64,000 nucleotides of DNA from Curvibacter sp. PAE-UM (lineage in GTDB: Bacteria > Pseudomonadota > Gammaproteobacteria > Burkholderiales > Burkholderiaceae_C). The translations under genes were made by a program, and so were the position numbers. Location of the stretch: positions 1,700,857 to 1,764,856 of the forward strand of contig NZ_KQ483358.1 of the NCBI RefSeq assembly GCF_001432305.1, in the 5' to 3' direction. The stretch's first letter is position 1. Every line of letters begins with the position of its first letter. The notes beneath the pieces were generated by a model. It was not told the DNA's origin. It saw only the letters and a list, made by a program, of their open reading frames with translations, and searched no databases. Shown one piece after another: positions 9,309-22,798 of this stretch.

Positions 9309-10418
9309 TCAGGGTCGCGGTGCGCCGGGGCTGACGATACGCCCCACATCGGCCGCCCCGCTGCCTGGTCCCCGGCGCTGCCCGGCCTCGCCGGGTTGAC
9401 CGGCCAGCCCCTCGCGCTGCCCCAGCCCGGGTTGGTTGGTCGAGGTGCCGCCCTCTCTGCCCGGCTGAACCAGCCCGCCCACACCTCCTCCGGGCCGACT
9501 GCCGCCGCCACTGCTGCGGGCACCGCCTTCGGAGGGCATGGCGCTGTTCTTGTCGGGCTTGCCCGGTTTGCTATCGGGCTTGTCCGGTTTGCTGTTGTCA
9601 GGTTTATCGGGTTTGCCTGCGGGCTTGTCAGGCTTGCTGTCCGGTTTGTCAGGGTTGCCCGCGGGTTTGCTGTCGGGCTTGCTATCGGGTTTGACACCGC
9701 TGCCCCCGCCGGCCGGTTTGGGATCCGGCTTGACGGCCCCGCCACTGCCGCCAGATGACCGGGGTTCCGGCTTGGCGCCACCACTGCCACCGCCAAACGG
9801 TTTGTCGTCGGGTTTCTTGCCGCCCTCTGACCTCGGCTTGTGCTCCTGGGGTTTCCCCATGCTGAAGCCGCCCGCCCTGCCGTCACTTTCCTGCGCCGCG
9901 CCACCCCGGTTCACACTGCCGGGTGCGGCATTGCCTGGCCCACCGCCACCCGGCGTTCTGCCGGCGCCGGGGTCGCCCATGCCGAAGTTCCCGCGCGCAC
10001 CACCGCCCGTCCCGGCATTGCCTTGCCGGTCGCCGCGTTGTGTGTTGCCGGCGCCAGGCTCGCCCCTGCCGAAATCGCCGCTCGCGCTACCGCCAGGCCT
10101 GCTCTCGCTGCCACTTTCGCGCGCCATGCCGCCGCGCTCCATCCCCCCGGGGCGGGCACTGCCTTGCCCGGCACCACCGGGCATGCCAGCGGCCCCCTGC
10201 ATCTCCCGGGCGCTTTTCATGTCCTTGCCTGCCTGCATGTCTTTGCGCTCAGGCGACACCGCAGCTTTTTTGTCCACGTCCGAACGCTGCGGGGCTGCCT
10301 TTGGCGTGGCCTTGACGGCTGGCCTGGCGGCGGGCGAATCTTCCTTCTTGAGGGCTTGCGCCAGCGCAGCGCTGCAGGCCAGCACACTGCACAAAACAAA
10401 GACCGGTCTGATCAGCAT
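9309..10418 (-). CDS. Secreted low-complexity Gly/Lys/Asp/Pro-rich protein
   Basis: The 369-residue product has a signal peptide (about residues 1-21, ending Ala-Leu-Ala-Gln). The rest is low complexity. A Lys/Glu-rich segment comes first, then a Gly/Arg/Met-rich part, then a repetitive block around residues 230-300 built from Lys-Pro-Asp-Lys-Pro-Asp-Ser-Lys-Pro units, then a Gly/Pro/Arg-rich tail. No catalytic domain is visible. It is probably an intrinsically disordered periplasmic or surface protein. AAGGAG precedes the ATG at 10418. The repeat block makes the gene prone to length variation. Confidence 0.65.
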   Translation of the reverse strand: MLIRPVFVLCSVLACSAALAQALKKEDSPAARPAVKATPKAAPQRSDVDKKAAVSPERKDMQAGKDMKSAREMQGAAGMPGGAGQGSARPGGMERGGMARESGSESRPGGSASGDFGRGEPGAGNTQRGDRQGNAGTGGGARGNFGMGDPGAGRTPGGGGPGNAAPGSVNRGGAAQESDGRAGGFSMGKPQEHKPRSEGGKKPDDKPFGGGSGGAKPEPRSSGGSGGAVKPDPKPAGGGSGVKPDSKPDSKPAGNPDKPDSKPDKPAGKPDKPDNSKPDKPDSKPGKPDKNSAMPSEGGARSSGGGSRPGGGVGGLVQPGREGGTSTNQPGLGQREGLAGQPGEAGQRRGPGSGAADVGRIVSPGAPRP

Positions 10419-10805
10419 GGTGGCTCCTTGGGGGACGGGGTGAGGCAGGACGTCTGCCGGGTCAGCGAGGTTCAGTCGCGAGTGGCCGATGTTGCGGCCA
10501 GCAGCCCGGCCCCAAGCCAGGCCGCCCACACGCCGGGCGTGCCGCTGCCGCAGTCCAGAGATTCATCCGCATCGCGGCCTCCCTTGCTTGATAGGCTCTG
10601 CTGACAGAGGCGTCTTGCTGCACCGCAAGCCCATTATTCGCCCGGCGTTTCTCGGGTGTCAAACCCGTCGGTCCATGGCACTCACGCCACCTGTATGCCA
10701 CTGCACAACGCAAGGCGGGTCCAAAAGGACGACAGGGTTTTCCTGCCTGGGCGGCAGGGCCCCGACGATCTGCATGGCCCGATCGACCGGCTTCTCAGCC
10801 CGGTG
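10419..10805. other. Intergenic stretch without a recognisable gene
   Basis: Apart from the promoter and ribosome binding site of the Gly-rich gene, I see no credible reading frame, RNA gene or strong inverted repeat in these 387 bases. The 5' part (10440-10560) has coding-like GC bias but no supported start. Confidence 0.5.
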
Positions 10806-11222
10806 TCATCTGGCGCGCAGCCCCTGCACCAGCGCGCCCAGGGCGATGCCGCCCAGCGCCCACAGCAGGTCCCAGTTGCCCGTGCCCAGGCCGGCAATCG
10901 CCGGGCCTGGGCATACGCCGCACAGGCCCCAGCCCACGCCGAACAGCGCAGCGCCGACGGCGGTATCGCGGTTCCAGTTGCTGGGATGGGTGTGGAAGTA
11001 GCCGCCCAGCAGCGGGCGGTTGACAAAGAGGGGCAGCACCTTGTAGGCCAGCAGGGTCACCAGCACCGCGCCGCCCATCACCAGCATCAGGCCCCAGTCT
11101 TCAAAGCGCAGGAAGCTCAGCACCACCTCGGGCTTCACCATGGTGGAGTACGAGAGGCCGAAGCCGAACAGCGCACCCGCGGCCAGCGTGGCCAGGGCGC
11201 TCTTGACATTCGTCGTGTTCAT
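10806..11222 (-). CDS. YeeE/YedE family protein, C-terminal-type half (PmpB-like)
   Basis: The 138-residue integral membrane protein has four hydrophobic helices and the motif Gly-Val-Gly-Trp-Gly-Leu-Cys-Gly-Val-Cys-Pro-Gly-Pro-Ala, typical of the second half of YeeE/YedE sulfur-compound transporters. It overlaps the upstream half gene by one base in a TGATG arrangement, so the two are translationally coupled. In TsuA/YeeE the halves are fused; here they are split as in PmpA/PmpB. Conserved Cys residues in the motif are intact. Transport of thiosulfate or a related sulfur species is inferred from family knowledge. Confidence 0.85.
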   Translation of the reverse strand: MNTTNVKSALATLAAGALFGFGLSYSTMVKPEVVLSFLRFEDWGLMLVMGGAVLVTLLAYKVLPLFVNRPLLGGYFHTHPSNWNRDTAVGAALFGVGWGLCGVCPGPAIAGLGTGNWDLLWALGGIALGALVQGLRAR

Positions 11223-11692
11223 CACAGCCACCTCGCTGCCAGGTTCGCCGTGAGGAAGGCCGTGGCCATGAAGGTCAGCACCGCGCCCAGCGCGGGCAGC
11301 TGCAGCGAACCCAGGCCACAGATGCCGTGGCCCGAGGTGCAGCCATTGCCCAGGCGTGCGCCGTAGCCCACGAAGAAGCCGCCCACCGCCAGTTGCCAGG
11401 CCGGCACCTGCGTGCCCTGCGCGGCACCGCCGGCAAAACCCAGCCACCACACCAGTGCGCCGACGATCAGCCCGGCCGCGTAGACCAGGCGCCAGCCGCG
11501 GCTGTCCACGAAACGCGGCTGCTGGAAAAACGGCCGGCGCACCAGGTACGACCAGCTGCTGGAAAACACCGTGCTCATGCCGCCGATGCGGCCGGTGAAG
11601 AGAAAGAGCAGGGCCGTGCCCAGCCCGATCAGCAGGCCGCCCAGCAGATAGTGCTGCCAGCCCAGGGGGAAGAGGGTGGTGAGGAGGTTCAT
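11222..11692 (-). CDS. YeeE/YedE family protein, N-terminal-type half (PmpA-like)
   Basis: This 156-residue membrane protein has about four or five helices. It carries Gly-Asn-Gly-Cys-Thr-Ser-Gly-His-Gly-Ile-Cys-Gly near residue 115, the hallmark of the first half of YeeE/YedE transporters, with the Cys thought to relay thiosulfate or persulfide sulfur. It is the first gene of a two-gene operon with the 10806-11222 gene. A GATAAT hexamer lies eight bases upstream of the ATG. No sulfur oxidation gene is adjacent. Confidence 0.85.
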   Translation of the reverse strand: MNLLTTLFPLGWQHYLLGGLLIGLGTALLFLFTGRIGGMSTVFSSSWSYLVRRPFFQQPRFVDSRGWRLVYAAGLIVGALVWWLGFAGGAAQGTQVPAWQLAVGGFFVGYGARLGNGCTSGHGICGLGSLQLPALGAVLTFMATAFLTANLAARWL

Positions 11693-11741: not shown

Positions 11742-12971
11742 TTACCAGGCGGTGTCGATCGCGTCCTGGGACGGGCGGACGGAAGGTGGCGAGGTGACGT
11801 TGCCGCCGTCCGAGCCCAGGGACAGGCGCTCGGCCTCGTTGAGCATGTCCAGCGGCACGGCATCGCCCGGCTGCTCCAGCGTGACGATGCCCATGCCCAG
11901 TTGCGGCGTGTAGTCGTGCCGGCTCTGGTCGCGGCCCACCACCATCAGCGGTCGGCCCACTGTGGCGCGCAGCCGCGCTATCGTCTCGTTGACGAACTCG
12001 TGGCGCGAGTCGGTGGAGATCACCACCACGAAACAGCGCGGGTGGTACAGACCGACCACGCAGCGAAAGCCCGCCGCGCGGCGGATGCGCGCCGCCATCG
12101 CTGCCAGGATCTGGTGTTCCACGCCGTGGCCGGCCGCCTGGCCCAGCTCGTAGAGATTGCGCAGATGCAGGCACACCACGGTGCAGCTGCCGTGCAGGCG
12201 CGCCGTACGCCAGAAGGCGTGTTCCACCTCGGACAGCAGCAGCGAGCCGGTGGGCAGGCCGGTGGCCGGGTCGGCGCCGACCTGCAGGCGCGACAGCCGC
12301 GTGAGCTGGCGCTGCTGGCGGTTGCGCACGAAGACCAGCACGCTGCAGGCCAGGAAATACACCACGGTGATCGTCGCCGTAAAAATCCAGGTGCCCAGGC
12401 CAAAGCCGGGCACGTTCAGCCCGCGCAGGTACAGGCCCCCCACCAGGGCGGCCAGCAGCACGCAGGCCAGCACCATCCAGCGCGCCAGCGGGTCACCCAG
12501 TGTGGCGGCGCGCAGCGTGGCCACCAGGCCCAGCACCGCAGCCGCCATGTTGACCACGGCCGTGACCAGCAGCAACTGCTGGAATTCCTCGGGGCTGGCG
12601 CGCGCCACCATCGCGGCCAGGGCCAGGGACGCCAGGAACAGCACGCCGGCCCCCCAGGTGGTGATGCGGTAGACCGTGCGGTCCTCGCGGCTGCCGCCCA
12701 GCCAGATGCCCAGGTAGTTCAGGGCCATGGCGCCGGCCAGAGGCCCCAGGCTGCCCTTGAGCAACTGCAGCAGCCACTGCGGCAGGCCGGGCCACAGCAC
12801 CTCGGGCAGGCCGGTCATCACCACGCAGCTTGCGCCGGCGATCAACACGAAGACCAGATTGCGCAGCGAGCCACGCTTGCGGTTGAACAGCGCGTCGGCC
12901 ATGGCCAGCGCAGTGAGGGTCAGCAAACCCCCGAGCATGGAAGACCAGACGGCGACTTCGGAAACGGGCAT
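11742..12971 (-). CDS. 7TM protein with degenerate GGDEF domain (tandem paralogue 1)
   Basis: The 409-residue protein has seven predicted transmembrane helices in residues 5-217, then a juxtamembrane Arg/Gln-rich helix and a cytoplasmic domain (about 230-380) with the layout of a GGDEF domain. Asp-Pro-Ala-Thr-Gly-Leu-Pro-Thr-Gly (234-242) matches the usual DxLTGLPNR start. The signature GGDEF is replaced by His-Pro-Arg-Cys-Phe (310-314), and the usual metal-binding Asp of the DLDxF strand is Leu-His-Leu. Diguanylate cyclase activity is therefore unlikely; a ligand-sensing or partner-binding role is inferred. It aligns without gaps to the next two genes over about 320 residues. Confidence 0.8.
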   Translation of the reverse strand: MPVSEVAVWSSMLGGLLTLTALAMADALFNRKRGSLRNLVFVLIAGASCVVMTGLPEVLWPGLPQWLLQLLKGSLGPLAGAMALNYLGIWLGGSREDRTVYRITTWGAGVLFLASLALAAMVARASPEEFQQLLLVTAVVNMAAAVLGLVATLRAATLGDPLARWMVLACVLLAALVGGLYLRGLNVPGFGLGTWIFTATITVVYFLACSVLVFVRNRQQRQLTRLSRLQVGADPATGLPTGSLLLSEVEHAFWRTARLHGSCTVVCLHLRNLYELGQAAGHGVEHQILAAMAARIRRAAGFRCVVGLYHPRCFVVVISTDSRHEFVNETIARLRATVGRPLMVVGRDQSRHDYTPQLGMGIVTLEQPGDAVPLDMLNEAERLSLGSDGGNVTSPPSVRPSQDAIDTAW

Positions 12972-12976
12972 GCGGC

Positions 12977-12982
12977 ATTATG
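12977..12982 (-). promoter_or_regulatory. Candidate -10 element CATAAT, leaderless arrangement
   Basis: CATAAT ends five bases (GCCGC) before the ATG at 12971. Transcription would then begin at or beside the start codon, and no Shine-Dalgarno sequence is present. The same bases recur before the two paralogous genes. Confidence 0.45.
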
Positions 12983-13048
12983 AAGGGACGCCAGCGGGGT
13001 TTGACGAAATTTATTGCTCGTTTTCACGGGGGACTACCCCGGGGAGCA

Positions 13049-13069
13049 CAGCAGCAGGGGCTGCTGCTG
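13049..13069 (-). repeat. CAGCAGCAG/CTGCTGCTG inverted repeat after paralogue 2
   Basis: A perfect 9-bp stem with a three-base loop lies just beyond the stop codon at 13074. It could protect or end the transcript of the 13074-14276 gene, but no T-run follows on that strand. Confidence 0.4.
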
Positions 13070-13073
13070 CGGT

Positions 13074-14276
13074 CTACCAGGTCGTGTCGACCCGGTCGGC
13101 AGGCAGCGGGCGACGAACCTGCTGCATGGCCTCGTGCTCCACCTCGTCGATCACGTCCTGCGGCACGGAGTGGTCGGGCTGCACCGTGCGCAAGGCAATG
13201 CCCACCTGGGGTACGAAGGGCTGGCGCTGGTCCTTGCTGCCCACCACCTGCAGCGGCTGCGTCACCAGGCCCAGCAGGCGGGCGATGTAGGTCTCGTTGA
13301 AGGTGCGCTTGCGGTCGATGGAGAACACCACGATGAAACAGCGCGGGTGATAGATGCCCACCACACAGCGAAAGCCCGCCGCACGACGGATGCGTGCGGC
13401 CGTGGCGGCCAGGATCTGGTTGTCGCTGGTGCGGCCCATGGAGTCGCCCAGCTCGTACAGATTGCTCAGGTAGATGCCCACCACGACGCAATGGCCGTGC
13501 AGCCGGCCGGTGCGCCAGAAGGCGTGCTCCACCTCGCTCAGCAGCTTGGCGCCGGTGGGCAGGCCGGTGGCCGGGTCCCAGCCCATCTCCAGGCGCGACA
13601 GCCGGACCAGCTGGCGCTGCTGGCGGTTGCGCACGACGATCAGCACCATCACGATCAGCAGGAAAAGCACCGCGCTCGTCGCAGTGAGGGCCTGCAGGCC
13701 CAGGCCGATGCCCGGGACCTTCAGGGCATGCAGGTACAGGCCGGCCATCAGGCCCGTCAGGATCAGGCAGGCCAGCACCAGCCAGCGCGCCAGCGGGTCA
13801 CCCAGCAGGGCGGCGCGCACGGCGATCACCATGCACAGCACCACCGCAATGGCGTTGAGGCCTGCCGTCAGCATCAGCAGGCCGTGGAAGTCCTGGGGGG
13901 CCACCAGCGTGGCCAGCACCGTCGTCACCAGCGATGCGATCAGCATGCCGTAGGCGCCCCAGACCGTGAGGCGGTGGACCAGGTAGTCCTCGCGGTCGCC
14001 GCCGGCCCAGATGCCCAGGAAGCGCAGGCCCAGCGCGCTGCTCAGCAGGCCGAAGCCCGCCTTGAGTGCCATCATGAGACGTTCGGGCAGGCTGGGAAAA
14101 AGCGTTTCGGGCAGGCCGGAGAGAAAGATGCAGGCACTGCCGATCGCGAAGATCAGCAGCATGTTGCGCGCCGCGCCCAGGCTGCGTGTCACCACGGTGT
14201 CGGCGGCGGCCAGCAGGACCAGCGACAACAATCCGCCGGCCATGATGGCCCAGATTGTGTTCTCTGCCATGTCCAT
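13074..14276 (-). CDS. 7TM protein with degenerate GGDEF domain (tandem paralogue 2)
   Basis: The 400-residue protein is the second of three tandem paralogues. It has seven membrane helices in residues 5-217, the Asp-Pro-Ala-Thr-Gly-Leu-Pro-Thr-Gly segment at 234-242, and His-Pro-Arg-Cys-Phe at 310-314 where GGDEF should be. Flanking residues are nearly identical to paralogue 1 (His-Ala-Phe-Trp-Arg-Thr at 251-256; Ala-Arg-Ile-Arg-Arg-Ala-Ala-Gly-Phe-Arg-Cys near 295-304). Active-site residues are lost but the substitution is shared, which argues for selection rather than decay. An ATG six bases downstream of the chosen start also exists. Confidence 0.8.
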   Translation of the reverse strand: MDMAENTIWAIMAGGLLSLVLLAAADTVVTRSLGAARNMLLIFAIGSACIFLSGLPETLFPSLPERLMMALKAGFGLLSSALGLRFLGIWAGGDREDYLVHRLTVWGAYGMLIASLVTTVLATLVAPQDFHGLLMLTAGLNAIAVVLCMVIAVRAALLGDPLARWLVLACLILTGLMAGLYLHALKVPGIGLGLQALTATSAVLFLLIVMVLIVVRNRQQRQLVRLSRLEMGWDPATGLPTGAKLLSEVEHAFWRTGRLHGHCVVVGIYLSNLYELGDSMGRTSDNQILAATAARIRRAAGFRCVVGIYHPRCFIVVFSIDRKRTFNETYIARLLGLVTQPLQVVGSKDQRQPFVPQVGIALRTVQPDHSVPQDVIDEVEHEAMQQVRRPLPADRVDTTW

Positions 14277-14282
14277 GCGGCA

Positions 14283-14288
14283 ATTATC
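14283..14288 (-). promoter_or_regulatory. Candidate -10 element GATAAT, leaderless arrangement
   Basis: GATAAT is followed by six bases (TGCCGC) and the ATG at 14276. The position predicts a transcript starting at the start codon. Confidence 0.45.
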
Positions 14289-14338
14289 CCCATCTTGTCA
14301 GGATGACACGCTGTTGCAGTGTGACGAAGTTGGCAGCA

Positions 14339-14356
14339 AGCAACGATTTCGTTGCT
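14339..14356. repeat. Inverted repeat AGCAACGA-TT-TCGTTGCT
   Basis: A perfect 8-bp inverted repeat with a 2-base centre lies between paralogues 2 and 3, followed on the + strand by an A-run. On the - strand the T-run precedes the stem, so this is not a normal intrinsic terminator. It may be a protein-binding site or a repeat-family remnant. Confidence 0.4.
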
Positions 14357-14427
14357 ACAAAAAAAGAAGCGCGCAGCGAAAGCAGTGCCTGGGCCTCGCG
14401 GCGGATACCCCGGTGCGTGTCCGGTGT

Positions 14428-15669
14428 CTACAGCGCGGCGCTGTCCGTGGTGGCCAGGCTGTCGCTGGGCCGGGTCGCGATATTGTCTTCCGACCGGCCA
14501 TGCCGCAGGGGCGGGCCCAGGGCCTGCCGCTCGGCCTCGTCGATGGCATCCATGGGCTGGGCACGCTGCGGATGGAGCGTGACGACCCCGCAGCCGACCC
14601 GGGGCCAGAAATCCTGTTGCGTGCCGTCCTTGCTGGTCACGGTCAGCGGCTCGGCGGCCAGGGTCCGCAGCCGCGCCACGGTCAGCCCGACGTACTGGCG
14701 GCGCTTGTCCGCGGAGATCACCACGACAAAGCAGCGCGAGTGATAAAGCCCCACGATGCAGCGAAAGCCTGCGGCGCGCCGGATGCGGGCCGCCATGATC
14801 GCCAGGATCTGCGGCTCCACGAGACGGCCGTCGGCTTCACCGAGCCCATACAGATTGTTCAGGCGCAGGCAGACCACCGTGCATTCGCCGTTCAGGCGGG
14901 CCGTGCGCCAGAAGGCGTGCGCCACCTCGGACAGCAGCATGGAGCCGGTGGGCAGGCCCGTGGCCGGATCGGTCCCCGTGGGCAGCGTGGCCAGGCGTTC
15001 GAGCTCCCGGGTTTGCCGGATGCGCTTGATGACCACTACGGAGCCGACCAGAAAATAGGCCACGGTGCACACCGCCGTCAGGATCCAGGTGCCCAGGCCG
15101 AAGCCTGCCAGTTCCAGGCTGCGCACCCACAGCCCGAGCACCTCCAGGGCCAGGCAGATACCGGCCAGCACCACCCAGGGGGCCAGCGGGTCGCCCAGCA
15201 GCGCTGCCCGGACCGAGGTGGCCAGGCCCAGCATCACGGCGATCACCGTGATGACCGCAGTGGCGTTCAGCAGCTGATGAAACTGCTCGCCGGGCGTCAG
15301 CGGCAGCAACAGGCCCAGCACCAGCGCGGCCGCCAGCATGAGGCCGGAGCCCCAGCGCGTGATGCGATGGGTGACCGGGTCCACCTCCGGGCCGCCCAGC
15401 CAGATGCCCAGGTAGTGCAGCACCAGGGCGGCGCTCAGCGGTCCCGTGCAGACCTTGAGCAGGTCCAGCACGCCTTGTGGCGCGCCAGGAAAGAGCACTT
15501 CGGGCAGGCCGGTGCGCACCAGGCTGCTCGCGCCGGTGACGACCACAAAGACCAGATAACGCAGGGAATTGATGTTGCGCGTGGCCAGGGCATTCACCAT
15601 GGCGATCGCAGCCAGGGTCAACAGACCACCCAGCATGGCAGACCAAACGACAAATTCTGTGGTGTCCAC
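14428..15669 (-). CDS. 7TM protein with degenerate GGDEF domain (tandem paralogue 3)
   Basis: The 413-residue protein starts at the GTG at 15669. With this start, residue numbering matches paralogues 1 and 2 exactly up to residue 320 (DPATGLPTG at 234-242; His-Ser-Arg-Cys-Phe at 310-314), and the bases in front (GATAAT, then GACGGC) parallel those before the other two genes. A 34-residue longer form from an upstream ATG is less likely. The architecture is seven membrane helices plus a catalytically degenerate GGDEF-like domain. The C-terminal tail, like that of the others, is divergent and disordered. Confidence 0.8.
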   Translation of the reverse strand: MDTTEFVVWSAMLGGLLTLAAIAMVNALATRNINSLRYLVFVVVTGASSLVRTGLPEVLFPGAPQGVLDLLKVCTGPLSAALVLHYLGIWLGGPEVDPVTHRITRWGSGLMLAAALVLGLLLPLTPGEQFHQLLNATAVITVIAVMLGLATSVRAALLGDPLAPWVVLAGICLALEVLGLWVRSLELAGFGLGTWILTAVCTVAYFLVGSVVVIKRIRQTRELERLATLPTGTDPATGLPTGSMLLSEVAHAFWRTARLNGECTVVCLRLNNLYGLGEADGRLVEPQILAIMAARIRRAAGFRCIVGLYHSRCFVVVISADKRRQYVGLTVARLRTLAAEPLTVTSKDGTQQDFWPRVGCGVVTLHPQRAQPMDAIDEAERQALGPPLRHGRSEDNIATRPSDSLATTDSAAL

Positions 15670-15675
15670 GCCGTC

Positions 15676-15681
15676 ATTATC
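15676..15681 (-). promoter_or_regulatory. Candidate -10 element GATAAT, leaderless arrangement
   Basis: GATAAT stands six bases before the GTG at 15669, the same geometry as before the other two paralogues. Confidence 0.45.
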
Positions 15682-15721: not shown

Positions 15722-16330
15722 TCAGCCCGGTCGTTGCCAGACCAGCAGCAGGTTGTTGGCCGGCATGGCATGGCGCGCGGCCAGCTGCAGGCCGGCGGCG
15801 TGGGCCACGCTCTCCACGTCCTCGCGCCGGCGGATGCCCCAGTCCGTGTTTTCGGCGCGTAGCGCGGCGTCGAACTTCAGGTTGCCCTCCGCAGTGGGCA
15901 CCTCGTCTTCCAGGTAGGGCCCGTAGGTCACCAGCCGCCCGCCCGGGGCGAGATGCTCGGCGGCGCCGCGCATCAGGCCCGCGCAGCAGGCCCAGGGCGC
16001 GATGTGCAGCATGTTGGCGCAGTAGATCAGGTCATGGCGCTCGTACTCGTTGGGCCAGGAACCGGTCAGCACGTTGAGCAACTGCGGCGGCTGCACGTTG
16101 ACCAGCCGCGCTTCACCGATGCGCACCATGATGTCCGGAAAGAGATCGGCCGTCTGGTCCGTGGGCTGCCACGTCCACTGCGGAAGGTTGGCGGCGAACC
16201 AGACCACGTGCTGCCCTGTGCCGCAGGCGATCTCCAGCGCGCGGCCCTGCGCGGGCAGCAGCGTGCGCAGCACGTCCAGGATGGGTTTTTTGTTGCGCTC
16301 GGCAGGCGCACTGAAGGCGAGTTCGTTCAT
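15722..16330 (-). CDS. DUF938 family SAM-dependent methyltransferase
   Basis: The 202-residue protein carries a class I methyltransferase motif I, Ala-Leu-Glu-Ile-Ala-Cys-Gly-Thr-Gly-Gln-His, around residues 32-42. It also has Trp-Gln-Pro-Thr-Asp, an acidic-loop motif II equivalent, and Ile-Tyr-Cys-Ala-Asn-Met-Leu-His-Ile-Ala-Pro-Trp, characteristic of DUF938. The substrate of the family is not established. The chosen ATG at 16330 follows the pattern TACAAA plus six bases with no ribosome binding site. A longer frame upstream runs across a palindrome and is rejected. It is divergent from the 16517 gene. Confidence 0.8.
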   Translation of the reverse strand: MNELAFSAPAERNKKPILDVLRTLLPAQGRALEIACGTGQHVVWFAANLPQWTWQPTDQTADLFPDIMVRIGEARLVNVQPPQLLNVLTGSWPNEYERHDLIYCANMLHIAPWACCAGLMRGAAEHLAPGGRLVTYGPYLEDEVPTAEGNLKFDAALRAENTDWGIRRREDVESVAHAAGLQLAARHAMPANNLLLVWQRPG

Positions 16331-16420: not shown

Positions 16421-16516
16421 TAGTAAAAGCACCAACGCTTCCTAGAGTGAAACCAGCGCATGGAAGAGGAGCCGTGCAGCGCATCTCCCCACACATCACA
16501 TCAAGGAGGTCTTTCC

Positions 16517-18205
16517 ATGCATACCGTCAGAATACTGATCGTGACCGACGGCGGTGGCGGCTACCAGCGCCCCACCGCCATCCCGCCACCCGGCAACACC
16601 GCCTTCCATCTCGGCGAATTCGTCCAGGTGCTGCAAGACACCGACTGGGTGGGCTTCAACCTGCAGATCACCAAGGCGCACCGCCGCAACCCGGCGGGGG
16701 CCGGCGCCGACGTGGTCGACCTCAGGTTCGACACGCACGACCTCTCGCAGTACGACGAGATCCTGCTCTTTGCCATCGAACGCGACGATATGGTCTCCAA
16801 CCGCGCCACGGCGGCCGAGGTGCAGGCCATCTCCAACTTCATGGACGCGGGGGGTGGCGTCTTCGCCACCGGCGACCACGAAGACCTGGGCGCCGGCCTG
16901 TGCCGCGAGATTCCGCGCGTGCGCAACATGCGCCGCTGGTACTACGACACCGCGCCGGCCGGTTTCCCCGTGGCGCCCTCGGGCAGCTCGGCCGACCGGC
17001 ACGACACCACGCGCCAGGGCTTCGACGCGTTCTACCAGTTCAGCGACCAGTCCGACACCATTGCCCAGGAGATCACCCCCCGGCTCTACTTCGGCGGCGG
17101 CAACCGCTACTTCCACTGGCGCTACCCGCACCCGCTGCTGTGCAGCCCGCACGGCGTGGTGCGCCACCTGCCGGACCATCCGCACGAAGGCCAGTGCGAG
17201 GTGCCGGCCAACCTGGGCCTCACCGTCCTGGGCCAGGACGAATACCCCGTGCTGCCCGGCAGCAGCACGCGCCTGGCGCCCGAACTCGTGGCCACCGGTC
17301 GTGTCATCGGCGGGCACAACCTGCTCAACAACAGCGGGGGCGAGTTCAAGCCCACCGTCAATGAAAAGACCTTCGGTGTGATTGGCGCCTACGACGGCCA
17401 TCGCATCGTGCGTGGCAGCACGCGCCTGGGCCGTGTGGTGGTCGACGCCACCTGGCACCACTTCTTCAACGTCAACCTGATGGGCGCGCAGACCGCCGGC
17501 GTCGATGGTTCGGGTGGCGACTTCGTCAAGGAGCGCGGCTTCTACGCGCCGCTCAACCCGGGGCAGGCCGACCACTACCGGATGATCAAGCACTACTTCC
17601 GCAACATCGTCTACTGGCTCATCCCGGCCGGCCGCTACCGCTGGATCTTCGACATCTTCGACCGCTTCGTCGCCTCGCCCTTCTTCTACGAGGAGTTCCG
17701 TTTCCCCTTCCGCGACCATGCGCACATTCCGATCCGCATCCACTTCGCCCTGGCGCAGCTCGCCGAGCAGTACTTTGCCTCGGTGCACGGCGCCTGCTCG
17801 GTGCCCCTGTTCGTGGGCGTGCTCTGGCGCGAGATTCAGCCGCTGCGCCCGATCTGGGACAAGCTCCAGCCCCTGCTCGACCCCTGGCAGCCCGAGCTGC
17901 CCCAGCCCAAGCCGGGCCCGGACCCGCTGCCCTGGGCAAGCAGCGGCCCCACTCCGCAGGACCTGATGCGCCTGCTGCTGGGCGTGACGGTTGCCAGCGC
18001 CGTGCTGGCGCAGCGCGAACTCGAAGGCAGCAAGGCCAAGGACATCACGGCCAAACGCGCCGAGCTCTTCGAGAAACTGCTGCCCAAGGTGGCCGACCAC
18101 GCCATCGGCGAATTCCGCGAGGCCCTCAAGGCCCAGAAGAAGGAACACAGCCAGTACCTGGAGGAGATGGACGCCCTGGTGGGCGTGGCCGGCAAGCGCG
18201 GCTGA
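16517..18205 (+). CDS. 562-residue protein of unrecognised family with GATase/ThuA-like N-terminus
   Basis: AAGGAGG precedes the ATG at 16517. Residues 1-20 form a beta strand plus glycine loop (Ile-Leu-Ile-Val-Thr-Asp-Gly-Gly-Gly-Gly). At 79-87 comes Tyr-Asp-Glu-Ile-Leu-Leu-Phe-Ala-Ile, and at 111-123 Ala-Gly-Gly-Gly-Val-Phe-Ala-Thr-Gly-Asp-His-Glu-Asp. This order resembles class I glutamine-amidotransferase-like or ThuA-like folds, without a nucleophile Cys at the elbow. Around residue 325 a Val-Val-Val-Asp-Ala-Thr-Trp-His-His-Phe-Phe-Asn segment, rich in His, may bind metal. The C-terminal about 150 residues are helical and charged. No signal peptide or membrane helix. I cannot assign a function. 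Confidence 0.75.
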   Translation: MHTVRILIVTDGGGGYQRPTAIPPPGNTAFHLGEFVQVLQDTDWVGFNLQITKAHRRNPAGAGADVVDLRFDTHDLSQYDEILLFAIERDDMVSNRATAAEVQAISNFMDAGGGVFATGDHEDLGAGLCREIPRVRNMRRWYYDTAPAGFPVAPSGSSADRHDTTRQGFDAFYQFSDQSDTIAQEITPRLYFGGGNRYFHWRYPHPLLCSPHGVVRHLPDHPHEGQCEVPANLGLTVLGQDEYPVLPGSSTRLAPELVATGRVIGGHNLLNNSGGEFKPTVNEKTFGVIGAYDGHRIVRGSTRLGRVVVDATWHHFFNVNLMGAQTAGVDGSGGDFVKERGFYAPLNPGQADHYRMIKHYFRNIVYWLIPAGRYRWIFDIFDRFVASPFFYEEFRFPFRDHAHIPIRIHFALAQLAEQYFASVHGACSVPLFVGVLWREIQPLRPIWDKLQPLLDPWQPELPQPKPGPDPLPWASSGPTPQDLMRLLLGVTVASAVLAQRELEGSKAKDITAKRAELFEKLLPKVADHAIGEFREALKAQKKEHSQYLEEMDALVGVAGKRG

Positions 18206-19537: not shown

Positions 19538-20758
19538 TCAGCCCGCCCGTGTCTCGGCGGACACCATGTGGCCGCGGCCGGCGTGCTTGGCGCCATAGAG
19601 CGCCGCATCGGCGCGGGCCATGAGCGACTCCAGCGTCTCGTGCCGGTCACGGCACAGGGCATGGCCGGTGCTGAAGTCCAGGTTGAAGTGGATGGCCTGC
19701 GGTGCGGCCTTGGCCAGTTCGGCACGCAGGCGATGGTCGAAGGCCTGTGCGGCGGCGGTGTCGGCGTGGGCCAGCAGCACGCAGAACTCCTCGCCGCCCA
19801 GGCGCGCATTCACGTCGCCTGCGCGCTGGCACTGTTTGAGCAGGTCGCCGAAGAACACCAGCGCCGCGTCACCGGTCTCGTGGCCGTAGGTGTCGTTGAT
19901 GCGCTTGAAGTGGTCCAGGTCGATCATCAGCAGTGACAGCGGATACCCGTGGCGCTGCGCATAACGCAGGGCCCGGTCCGCCTGCTCGGCCCAGCCGTTG
20001 CGGTTGACCAGGCCTGTGAGCGCATCGGTGACGACCAGGGTGCGCAGCTTGTGCTGCGCCTCTTCGCGCCAGGCCGCCAGGATGGCGATATTGATCAGCA
20101 CCAGCGTCACGTTGGCGGCCACCAGCGCCGTCAGGTTGACCGGCGTGGGTGCGCGGAAAAAGGGGTAGAGCTCGGTGAACCAGGCGCCCAGGATGCCGCG
20201 CAGCGCGGTGAGGATGGCCATCAGGCCGACACAGCCGAACAGCAGGAAACGCCAGTTGCCCTGGCCGAACTCGCGGTTCACCGGCAGCAGCGCGGCGCGC
20301 GCCAGGATCAGCAACTGCCCCGCGATCAGCAGGTTGGCCCAGCCCACACGCACCGGGTAGCTGCCAAAACTCAGGGCGTAACCCAGCGGCGTGGCCAGCA
20401 CCAGCACCAGCAACAAGCGGCCCAGCGGGCGCGGTCCCAGCCAGTGGCTGAGGGCGCGATAGACCAGCCAGTTGCTCAGGCTCAGCAGTCCCATGGCCAC
20501 GCTGGAGAGCAGCCAGTCGGGCCACTGCTCGCGCCAGAAGCCGGCAAAGATCAATGCCAGCCAGGCGGCCCCGTTGATCATCAAGGAGGCGCGCGCATTG
20601 TGCGCGGCCGGGCTCAGGTTCTGCCCCATCACCAAGGGCAGGGCCAGCGACATCGCCAACAGGTTGGCGACGTTCAGAAAAATCAGGGTGGTGGGGTCGA
20701 GTGACACGGGCGGAGAGCGGGGCGGTAGGCCCGACGCGACCGCCAGTTTAGTCGACAT
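19538..20758 (-). CDS. Membrane-bound diguanylate cyclase (GGEEF)
   Basis: The 406-residue protein has six or seven membrane helices in its first about 225 residues. A GGDEF domain follows, with Asp-Ala-Leu-Thr-Gly-Leu-Val-Asn-Arg, Met-Ile-Asp-Leu-Asp-His-Phe-Lys-Arg-Ile-Asn-Asp and the active-site motif Gly-Gly-Glu-Glu-Phe (in Arg-Leu-Gly-Gly-Glu-Glu-Phe). All metal- and GTP-binding residues expected for cyclic-di-GMP synthesis are present. No RxxD inhibitory site is evident upstream of the motif (the preceding residues are Asp-Val-Asn-Ala). ATG 20758 and GTG 20767 are both possible starts; neither has a strong Shine-Dalgarno. Confidence 0.9.
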   Translation of the reverse strand: MSTKLAVASGLPPRSPPVSLDPTTLIFLNVANLLAMSLALPLVMGQNLSPAAHNARASLMINGAAWLALIFAGFWREQWPDWLLSSVAMGLLSLSNWLVYRALSHWLGPRPLGRLLLVLVLATPLGYALSFGSYPVRVGWANLLIAGQLLILARAALLPVNREFGQGNWRFLLFGCVGLMAILTALRGILGAWFTELYPFFRAPTPVNLTALVAANVTLVLINIAILAAWREEAQHKLRTLVVTDALTGLVNRNGWAEQADRALRYAQRHGYPLSLLMIDLDHFKRINDTYGHETGDAALVFFGDLLKQCQRAGDVNARLGGEEFCVLLAHADTAAAQAFDHRLRAELAKAAPQAIHFNLDFSTGHALCRDRHETLESLMARADAALYGAKHAGRGHMVSAETRAG

Positions 20759-20819
20759 TCCGCACACTGAGCCGTGTGCATGCCGCCCGGGCTATGGGCC
20801 AGGCTCCCGGCGCACGCCC

Positions 20820-22697
20820 TCAGTTGCAGGCGCCGCACTTGTTCGGGTCGACCCGCAGCGCGCTGGCCGTGCCCTTCATGCGGCGGCAGGACTCCTGGCG
20901 CTCGGCCTCGTAGCCGTTGAAGTTGAACTTGCGCTTCACGCAGGCGTTGCTGGAGGCCAGCACGCAGAAAGTGTCGAGCTGGGAGTCGCCATAGGGGCGG
21001 GCGCCGGACATGGCCTCCTGCTGGCAGGCCAGTTCGCCTGCGTCGAAGGTGGCCTTGGGCACGCCGCCCTTCATCGCGCCGCCGCTGCCGGACCCGCCGC
21101 CGCTGTTCGAGCCGGCACCCGTGCCGGCGCCAGCCACGCTCTGCTGGAAGTTGGACACGCCGCTCTGCCCGGCCATGCTGTCCTGCAGCACCCCCGAGAT
21201 CACCCGGGCCTGCTGCTCTGACGGCAGCTTGTCCAGCCCGCCGATGGCTGCCCCACCCAGCAGTGCCGCCGCCTTGCCCCACTGGAAGCCCGAGGACTCC
21301 TGGCGTTGCGGCTGCGGGGCCTGGGCCTGCTGCTGCGCGGCTGCGTCGGCGCGCTTGCCGTCCACCCAGTTGCCGGCGTAGCGGGTGCCGTCCTTGTAGG
21401 TCATGACGCCGTAGCCCGTCTCCTCGCCGTTCTCGTAGTTGCCTTCGTAGCGCTGGCCGCTGGGCCAGGTGTAGACCCCTGGGCCCGAGAACTTGTCGTT
21501 TGCATAGCCGCCCACATGGCGGTGGCCGCTTGCGTAGGTTCTCACGCCCTGGCCGTGCCGCTTGCCGGCGACGAAATCGCCCTCATAGCGGTCGCCGTTG
21601 GCCGCGACGAAGACGCCCTTGCCGTGGTACCTGTTGTCCGCCACGTCGCCCTCGTAGCGCTGGCCGCTGGGCCAGGTGTACACGGCCTTGCCGGCGCGAT
21701 TGCCATTGACGTAGTCGCCCTCGTAGCGCATGCCACTGGCGTGGACCACCACGGCCTTGCCGTGGAACTGGTCCGCCAGGAAATCGCCCTCGTAGCGGTC
21801 GCCGGTGGCCCAGGTGAAGACGCCCTTGCCCTGCTTCTGCCCGTTGACGAAATCGCCCTCGTAGCGATTGCCCGAGGCATAGGCCACGCTGCCGCGGCCG
21901 GTCTTCTTGGCGTTCACGAACTCCAGGTCCACCGGCATGCGCTCGCCGCTGGCGCTGATGCGCGTGCCCTGGCTGACGACGTCGTTCACGAAGCGGCCTT
22001 CGAAGCGCGAGCCGTCGGCGTACTGCAGCACCGCGTTGCCCTCGCGCTTGTTCGCGACGAACTCGCCCGTGTAGCGGTCGCCGTTGGCCAGCGTCAGCAC
22101 GCCCTGGCCGTGGAACTGGCTGTTGACGTAGTCGCCTTCATAGCGCTGGCCGTTGGCCCAGACCTGCAGACCTTTGCCCTGGCGCTGGTCCGCGACGAAA
22201 TCGCCCTGGTAGCGCATGCCGTCCGCCCAGGTGTAGACGCCCTTGCCCTGGTAGTTGTCCGTGATGAAGTCGCCCTCATAGCGGTTGCCGCTGGCCATGG
22301 TCTGAACACCCTTGCCATGGCGCTTGCCTGCGGCGAAGTCACCCTCGTAGCGCGCACCGTCCTTCCAGATGAACACACCCTTGCCGGAGCGCAGGCTCGC
22401 GGCGAAGTCGCCCTCGTAGCGGTCGCCACTGGCCAGGGTCAGCACCCCCTTGCCCTGCATCTGGCCCTGGACGAAATCGCCCTCGTAGCGTTGCCCGCTG
22501 GTCCAGGTCATCACGCCAGTGCCCTGGGGCTTGCCGTTGGCCATGCCGCCTTCGTAGCGGATGCCCTGGTCCCAGACATAGATCCCCTGGCCCGTGGCCG
22601 GGTCGAAAGAGACCAGCTTGTCGGCCAGGGCCGGGCCGGCGGCCAGGACGGTGAAAAGCGATGCAATGCCGATCAGGACGGAAAGACGCAGGCGCAT
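20820..22697 (-). CDS. Exported MORN-repeat protein with about 18 repeats
   Basis: The 625-residue protein begins with a signal peptide (ending Ala-Leu-Ala-Asp, about residue 25). About 18 consecutive 23-residue MORN units (Gly-Lys-Gly-Val-x-Thr-x-x-x-Gly-x-Arg-Tyr-Glu-Gly-Asp-Phe consensus) follow over residues 30-450; the tenth unit is degenerate and one residue longer. Next is a Gln/Ala/Pro linker and a Gly/Ser-rich segment. A C-terminal domain of about 90 residues has seven Cys (Ala-Cys-Gln-Gln, Phe-Cys-Val, Ala-Cys-Val-Lys, Ser-Cys-Arg-Arg, Lys-Cys-Gly-Ala-Cys), so disulfides are likely. MORN repeats usually bind lipids or proteins at membranes; here the location is periplasm or cell surface. 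Confidence 0.85.
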   Translation of the reverse strand: MRLRLSVLIGIASLFTVLAAGPALADKLVSFDPATGQGIYVWDQGIRYEGGMANGKPQGTGVMTWTSGQRYEGDFVQGQMQGKGVLTLASGDRYEGDFAASLRSGKGVFIWKDGARYEGDFAAGKRHGKGVQTMASGNRYEGDFITDNYQGKGVYTWADGMRYQGDFVADQRQGKGLQVWANGQRYEGDYVNSQFHGQGVLTLANGDRYTGEFVANKREGNAVLQYADGSRFEGRFVNDVVSQGTRISASGERMPVDLEFVNAKKTGRGSVAYASGNRYEGDFVNGQKQGKGVFTWATGDRYEGDFLADQFHGKAVVVHASGMRYEGDYVNGNRAGKAVYTWPSGQRYEGDVADNRYHGKGVFVAANGDRYEGDFVAGKRHGQGVRTYASGHRHVGGYANDKFSGPGVYTWPSGQRYEGNYENGEETGYGVMTYKDGTRYAGNWVDGKRADAAAQQQAQAPQPQRQESSGFQWGKAAALLGGAAIGGLDKLPSEQQARVISGVLQDSMAGQSGVSNFQQSVAGAGTGAGSNSGGGSGSGGAMKGGVPKATFDAGELACQQEAMSGARPYGDSQLDTFCVLASSNACVKRKFNFNGYEAERQESCRRMKGTASALRVDPNKCGACN

Positions 22698-22798
22698 GGG
22701 TGGGCTCACTGGGTGGTGTGGATGAGGTGGAAATGACTATAAGCGAGCCCCCGGCCCGGCCGGCGTGAAAAAAGCACGGCTTGCGCGCCCGGTGGCGC

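Follow-up and report, generated by a model that had tools for sequence, protein, structure and literature searches.

Three tandem 7TM-like proteins of Curvibacter sp. PAE-UM with a conserved H-[PS]-R-C-F in place of GGDEF

The three adjacent genes described here belong to a protein family that has lost the GGDEF signature and keeps a specific replacement for it in many genomes. They lie on the minus strand of a 64,000-nucleotide stretch of Curvibacter sp. PAE-UM (contig NZ_KQ483358.1, positions 1,700,857 to 1,764,856 of the forward strand; in the following "the window", with positions counted from its first letter) and encode the paralogues P1, P2 and P3, each composed of a seven-transmembrane (7TM)-like part and a GGDEF-type domain. 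A first-pass annotation made from the letters alone had claimed a shared substitution in the motif of all three. This observation is confirmed and rests on conservation across many genomes; the function is an inferred one. Our leading reading, held with about as much confidence as doubt, is that P1, P2 and P3 are 7TM pseudo-diguanylate cyclases that signal by protein contacts and tune the output of cyclic diguanylate (c-di-GMP) locally. The genes and their relevant parts are:

11742..12971, minus strand: P1 (P0001), 409 amino acids, 7TM-like part followed by a pseudo-GGDEF domain at residues 231-391
P1 residues 3-30, 33-53, 65-90, 98-124, 127-157, 161-184 and 192-228: predicted helices (AlphaFold2 model)
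12030..12044, minus strand: HPRCF codons of P1, residues 310-314, GGDEF position
13074..14276, minus strand: P2 (P0002), 400 amino acids, 7TM-like and pseudo-GGDEF paralogue
13335..13349, minus strand: HPRCF codons of P2, residues 310-314, GGDEF position
14428..15669, minus strand: P3 (P0003), 413 amino acids from GTG 15669, 7TM-like and pseudo-GGDEF paralogue
14728..14742, minus strand: HSRCF codons of P3, residues 310-314, GGDEF position

P2 and P3 are 52% and 57% identical to P1, respectively. The three same-strand tandem paralogues had been described as gapless over the first 320 residues, and in a MAFFT alignment the first gap indeed appears at column 366. H[PS]RCF at residues 310-314 was read from the DNA codons of all three genes and is no chance reading because homologues show the motif too. 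For P3 an alternative start, ATG 15771, exists within the upstream gene, but the alignment and a -10-like box ahead of GTG 15669 speak for the latter. The Pfam GGDEF profile matches P1 with E 2.2e-7, P2 with E 1.6e-3 and P3 with E 1.1e-3, above the Pfam cut-off in P1 only. For the 7TMR-DISM_7TM profile (PF07695) the corresponding values are 8.6e-5, 3.8e-3 and 1.4e-8, with 23.0 and 17.6 bits in P1 and P2, below the cut-off of 29 bits, and 35.3 bits in P3, above it; 16 of 22 family members match this profile at E ≤0.01 (best 4.6e-9). An AlphaFold2 model, made of P1 alone, has seven long helices within residues 3-228 and a GGDEF fold at residues 231-391 (mean pLDDT 88.3), with mean pLDDT of 84-97 in the blocks covering residues 1-220 and of 66 in block 221-230. 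The seven membrane helices claimed for each protein are therefore assigned in P1 from the model and in P2 and P3 only from the alignment to P1. An extracytoplasmic DISMED1/2 domain was not found: the P1 model opens directly with helix 1, and no such Pfam match exists in P1, P2 or P3. Among solved structures the best profile match is FimX (E 2e-6), and in the structure comparison the matches listed were taken up by the GGDEF domain.

The roles of the catalytic, metal and guanine-contacting residues of GGDEF domains are known from work on PleD. The host genome contains 50 GGDEF matches, namely 39 with GG[DE]EF, one with AGDEF, seven other variants, and P1, P2 and P3, and among these 50 an acidic residue at motif positions 3 and 4 is missing only in P1, P2 and P3. 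Compared with the 39 best-scoring matches of the genome (L184-L222; 37 GG[DE]EF, one AGDEF, one GGDEL), all three proteins are devoid of DxDxFK, ND, the GD of GHxxGD, the RxxD I-site and GG[DE]EF, and retain D-x-x-T-G-L-P; the loss of the metal-binding Asp of DLDxF and the retention of D-P-A-T-G-L-P, both noted at first pass, are borne out by this alignment. The C-terminal AxYxAKxxGRN is missing as well; this was decided by visual inspection of the full-length proteins, since the aligned stretches end before it. The RxxD position now has an invariant G-F-R, mostly followed by C. Because the metal, guanine, I-site and GG[DE]EF residues are all gone, the sequences make it very likely that diguanylate cyclase activity has been lost from P1, P2 and P3. 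From the same positions we infer that nucleotide binding may have disappeared altogether.

A scan of genome contigs gave 40 loci, titled mostly Hydrogenophaga, Hylemonella, Curvibacter, Rhodoferax and unnamed Burkholderiales or Betaproteobacteria, with one Gammaproteobacteria bacterium. In whole-genome searches, in each of which the host genome is counted, the family is present in 13 of 60 relatives (12 of these belong to the host genus, which is represented by 26 genomes) and, at E 1e-15, in 31/399 genomes and 17/141 genera of the host's bacterial family. Loci were extracted for a capped number of places, to which seven more from the family-level search were added. The order-level search found it in two of 200 genomes and the class-level search with the 7TM part alone in two of 274, in both cases from the host's bacterial family, to which it is confined in the sampled genomes. 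A mobile origin was considered and rejected, as plasmid and phage sequences gave no match to P0001 at E 1e-10. In the open-licence literature no paper was found on this family or motif; the string HPRCF occurs there in one paper, which by its listing has a different subject.

Leaving out matches that span fewer than 300 profile positions, 83 distinct family rows remain, including the three of the window. Their motifs are HPRCF (56), YDRCF (7), QPRCF (5), HPGCF (3), HSRCF, QARCF and HQRCF (two each) and, in single rows, EPRSF, HPQCF, WERCF, YDRCY, GDNSF and WDRCF; cysteine occupies motif position 4 in 81 of the 83, and none has GG[DE]EF, so that intact GGDEF is anything but common in orthologues. 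More distant full-length relatives carry DGF, ACF or [NS]SF, and most GGDEF matches of other layouts have an intact GGDEF. A tree of 104 rows sorts the motif types by clade (13 DGF, 3 [NS]SF, 3 ACF, 13 [YW][DE]RC[FY] and 72 of the H-x-R-C-F type); it was built by a quick method with SH-aLRT support only, some of its deeper forks are open, and it comprises neither the GGDEF matches of other families (L152-L169, most with intact GGDEF) nor L178, L181 and L183 (GESRY, GETKF and GDARY). The residues at 310-314 of homologues are specific by clade and not random. As a shared specific motif H[PS]RCF therefore holds family-wide, but it is neither exclusive to the triplet nor absolute, as QPRCF, EPRSF, HPGCF and the other clades demonstrate.

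For the analysis of conservation the 83 rows were reduced to 70 by a motif filter and to 52 below 85% identity, and in these 52 the top-conserved nine-residue windows fall within residues 306-317. On the tree of the 72-row H-x-R-C-F clade, parsimony counts 15.4 changes per column in the 7TM part, 13.2 in the C-terminal domain, 2.9 in residues 294-303 and 3.1 in residues 306-315, and the latter two stretches make up a single block, where I-site and A-site of canonical domains would lie, which is the slowest-changing part of the protein. R297, G301, F302, R303, G307 and F314 show zero changes on this tree, C313 one, R312 two, and H310 and P311 three each. C313 is kept in 71 of the 72 rows, C263 in 67, C267 in 58 and C304 in 56. 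Nei-Gojobori omega values, which are rough at high G+C, range from 0.13 to 0.53 in 13 pairs and are lower in the C-terminal domain than in the membrane part in 11 of them. Taken as sequence evidence, this supports a shared replacement in three copies that is under constraint and not in decay. Pseudogenes decaying after duplication, an extremely improbable reading for which a P3 remnant in locus L014 and a frame-split P2 in L050 speak as cases of copy loss, were rejected on account of the three open frames, these omega values and the family-wide motif. The earlier preference for a conserved new function is upheld insofar as a specific replacement is constrained throughout the family; the new ligand suggested with it stays a proposal. 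It is also quite improbable that the C-terminal domain is a structural remnant whose sole task is to stabilise the 7TM sensor or hold it in a dimer, with the motif kept for packing. The fold of P1 is well predicted, and F314, G307 and Y309 are structural positions in GGDEF domains, which would suit such a role, but H310, P311, R312 and C313 occupy the former catalytic place, the motif types sort by clade and the C-terminal domain is the more constrained part in the 11 pairs mentioned.

According to the contact model, the 7TM domain would sense a membrane or periplasmic input and relay it to a GGDEF-fold domain in the cytoplasm, for which the usual mode of binding Mg-GTP or c-di-GMP is presumably no longer available. 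The remade hairpin (Y-H-P-R-C-F) and the remade I-site loop (R-I-R-R-x-x-G-F-R) may together form a contact surface; its counterpart would most likely be a second GGDEF domain or else a dedicated partner protein, and this contact would tune c-di-GMP output locally. The main rival, which we consider rather unlikely, is a new ligand at the rebuilt sites: the pocket would bind another nucleotide, an anionic metabolite or RNA via the nearly invariant arginines R295, R297, R298, R303 and R312 together with H310 and C313, and the protein would act as a 7TM-coupled receptor. Hairpin and loop are both Arg-rich and lie in the slowest-changing part, and the degenerate GGDEF domain of FimX (GDSIF), the top structure match, is reported to sense GTP still (PMC8846402). 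On the other hand, the guanine- and metal-contacting residues are gone, and the incomplete conservation of C263, C267 and C304 speaks against a fixed metal or Fe-S site; a four-Cys site of this kind, tried as a candidate, was weakened since each of these three cysteines is replaced in several rows. Highly doubtful is a redox or thiol sensor in which C313, with C263, C267 or C304, would be oxidised or modified and so change the state of the 7TM protein. The single change of C313 on the 72-row tree, the 81 of 83 rows with cysteine at position 4 and sulfur-related neighbours (YeeE/YedE in the window, glutamate-cysteine ligase in the Rhodoferax-like L045) would fit it, but part of the clade has Ala, Gly, Ser, Asn or still other residues instead of the remaining cysteines, C263, C267 and C304 are absent from the YDRCF-type rows compared, a buried cysteine is possibly just structural, and neighbours vary between genera.

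Beyond the proteins themselves, this analysis adds a -10-like box 5-6 nucleotides ahead of each start codon of the array:

12977..12982, minus strand: CATAAT, 5 nucleotides ahead of the P1 ATG, putative leaderless-type promoter
14283..14288, minus strand: GATAAT, 6 nucleotides ahead of the P2 ATG
15676..15681, minus strand: GATAAT, 6 nucleotides ahead of the P3 GTG

Upstream regions were compared in hand-picked sets of 49, 47 and 47 family starts, and [CGT]ATAAT lies within 30 nucleotides of the start in 40 of the 49. With 1.06 sites of the pattern ATAATN{5,7}RTG expected, the window has four, a number reached in two of 100 shuffles, and three of the four sites are the starts of P1, P2 and P3. 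Under a looser rule ([CG]ATAAT 5-8 nucleotides ahead of any in-frame start codon that falls within the initial 35% of the reading frame) a box is found in 41 of 54 core-family genes, which as related rows are not 54 independent events, against one of 329 other conserved open reading frames of the same loci. A -10 box at this spacing implies transcripts that would start at or beside the start codon and suggests that P1, P2 and P3 are each made from a separate leaderless transcript.

A CRP/FNR-like dyad (TGTGA-N6-TCACA, at least 8 of 10 positions) is present in 13 of 47 upstream regions, with its centre -38 to -48 relative to the start (P1 4/10, P2 0/8, P3 1/6, Hydrogenophaga-like 8/17, Rhodoferax-like 0/6); single-base shuffles and four control positions give next to none. 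It was seen in L014, L015, L016, L018 (P3), L020, L021, L023, L026, L028, L030, L031, L037 and L050, at a position roughly equal to class II activator spacing. For the window genes, which score only 4, 4 and 5 of 10, no such dyad is claimed. A perfect dyad, AGCAACGAAATCGTTGCT, lies at 14339-14356, about 70 nucleotides ahead of the P2 start, and is partly kept in L013 and L014. One may also conceive of a distinct RCF class of GGDEF-fold receptors in a single bacterial family, in which catalytic hairpin and I-site of a 7TM-coupled pseudo-cyclase would have been rebuilt into an Arg/Cys site for a ligand other than GTP and c-di-GMP, with an array of separate leaderless receptor genes and a CRP/FNR-type activator in relatives; this we regard as unlikely.

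On the 104-row tree the orthologues of P1 make up a clade of 12 rows (support 93), those of P2 one of 10 (100) and those of P3 one of 7 (100), and among the nine array loci, i.e. those with two or more array copies or remains, the full order DUF938 - P3 - P2 - P1 - YeeE - DUF6691 is present in five (the window, L013, L015, L016 and L040). Because of these ortholog clades and the common order, the triplication is judged old and its copies to have stayed separate. With three long-separated paralogues, each probably under its own leaderless-type promoter, the copies presumably answer to different inputs or conditions. In the host genus (26 genomes) three copies are found in eight genomes, two copies in two and a single copy in one; a further genome combines one intact copy with fragments. 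In L050 P2 is broken across several frames, P3 was not found in L017, and in L018 YeeE, DUF6691 and DUF938 sit between P3 and P2. The genes around the array are:

11222..11692, minus strand: YeeE/YedE-type Sulf_transp gene, syntenic neighbour
15722..16321, minus strand (stretch as searched; in-frame ATG 16330): DUF938 methyltransferase-like gene, syntenic neighbour
19538..20767, minus strand: P0004, hydrophobic N-terminus by eye, intact GGDEF domain (LGGEEF)

No operon partner is proposed as functionally linked, as neighbours vary between genera. A P0004-type gene with intact GGDEF lies upstream on the same strand in six of the nine array loci, and P0004 may be mentioned, as a lead only, as a candidate partner of the array proteins. 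There is no sign that it is a sister gene, since a profile comparison aligned residues 210-340 only, with a probability of 0.3%. The surroundings further comprise a 581-residue frame (16460-18205) between the SRAP and DUF938 genes that has no Pfam match at E 0.001, a long MORN-repeat protein (20820-22709, E 1.1e-97) and, downstream of the array, a 406-residue low-complexity frame rich in Gly, Pro, Lys and Ser (9309-10529).

Several points weigh against the contact model and its array of separately expressed receptors. Conservation of the hairpin is common to GGDEF families in general, which makes the signal a structural one in part, and canonical domains have the same or nearly the same residues at G307, Y309 and F314, so the hairpin may serve the stability of the fold. 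P1 and P3 orthologues differ at motif positions 1-4, those of P1 including QPRCF and EPRSF and those of P3 HPGCF, HPQCF and HPRCF. Since 14 of the 26 genus genomes (some incomplete) have no family gene, and P3 is reduced to a 64-residue remnant in L014, the genes are dispensable. A P0004-type gene was not found in L017, L018, L050 or the other 32 of 41 loci, with flanks of at most 6 kb and some loci short. Outlying family rows, whose starts are approximate, have a near-start box in three of 48, including three of 13 of the H-x-R-C-F type.

Degenerate GGDEF domains are already known as receptors or interaction modules (FimX, CdgI, CsrD, RgsP); CdgI and CsrD are membrane-linked, and the motif of CsrD is HRSDF. 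The 7TMR-DISM receptors (PF07695; RgsP, NicD, RetS, LadS) resemble P1, P2 and P3 in that a signalling domain in the cytoplasm follows a 7TM block, but in the three window proteins no 7TMR-DISMED, EAL or PAS domain was seen, and two of the three Pfam matches are below the cut-off. One of them, RgsP, has a degenerate GGDQF without cyclase activity and an essential N-terminal part (PMC6107284); RgsP retains RxxD and an active EAL domain, whereas in P1, P2 and P3 A-site and I-site are both remade. The enzymatically dead GGDEF domains of CdgI and CsrD of Escherichia coli contact other GGDEF domains (PMC5635695). CdgI retains its I-site and binds c-di-GMP and CsrD has an EAL domain, in contrast with P1, P2 and P3, which have neither I-site nor EAL. 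GTP sensing by FimX is reported to proceed through its degenerate GDSIF (PMC8846402), in a domain joined to EAL and not to a 7TM part, and the usual GTP-binding residues are missing from P1, P2 and P3. Within the host's bacterial family, 7TM proteins with the motif GRL[GDA][DE]DGF (among L172-L182) share the layout by profile, a dead motif and tandem pairs (seen at L172, L174 and L180 of this other pseudo-GGDEF clade, there with GRL[GD][DE]DGF), but their motif is different, they are long separated on the tree and the rows inspected gave no near-start -10 box. As a rule, studies take up degenerate GGDEF domains singly; here a whole family has lost catalysis and has long conserved a specific substitute. 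As each clade has its own substitute (DGF, [NS]SF, ACF, YDRCF, HPRCF), the purpose of dead GGDEF domains becomes testable by clade comparison, and the tandem, apparently separately promoted copies offer natural variants of one receptor within one cell.

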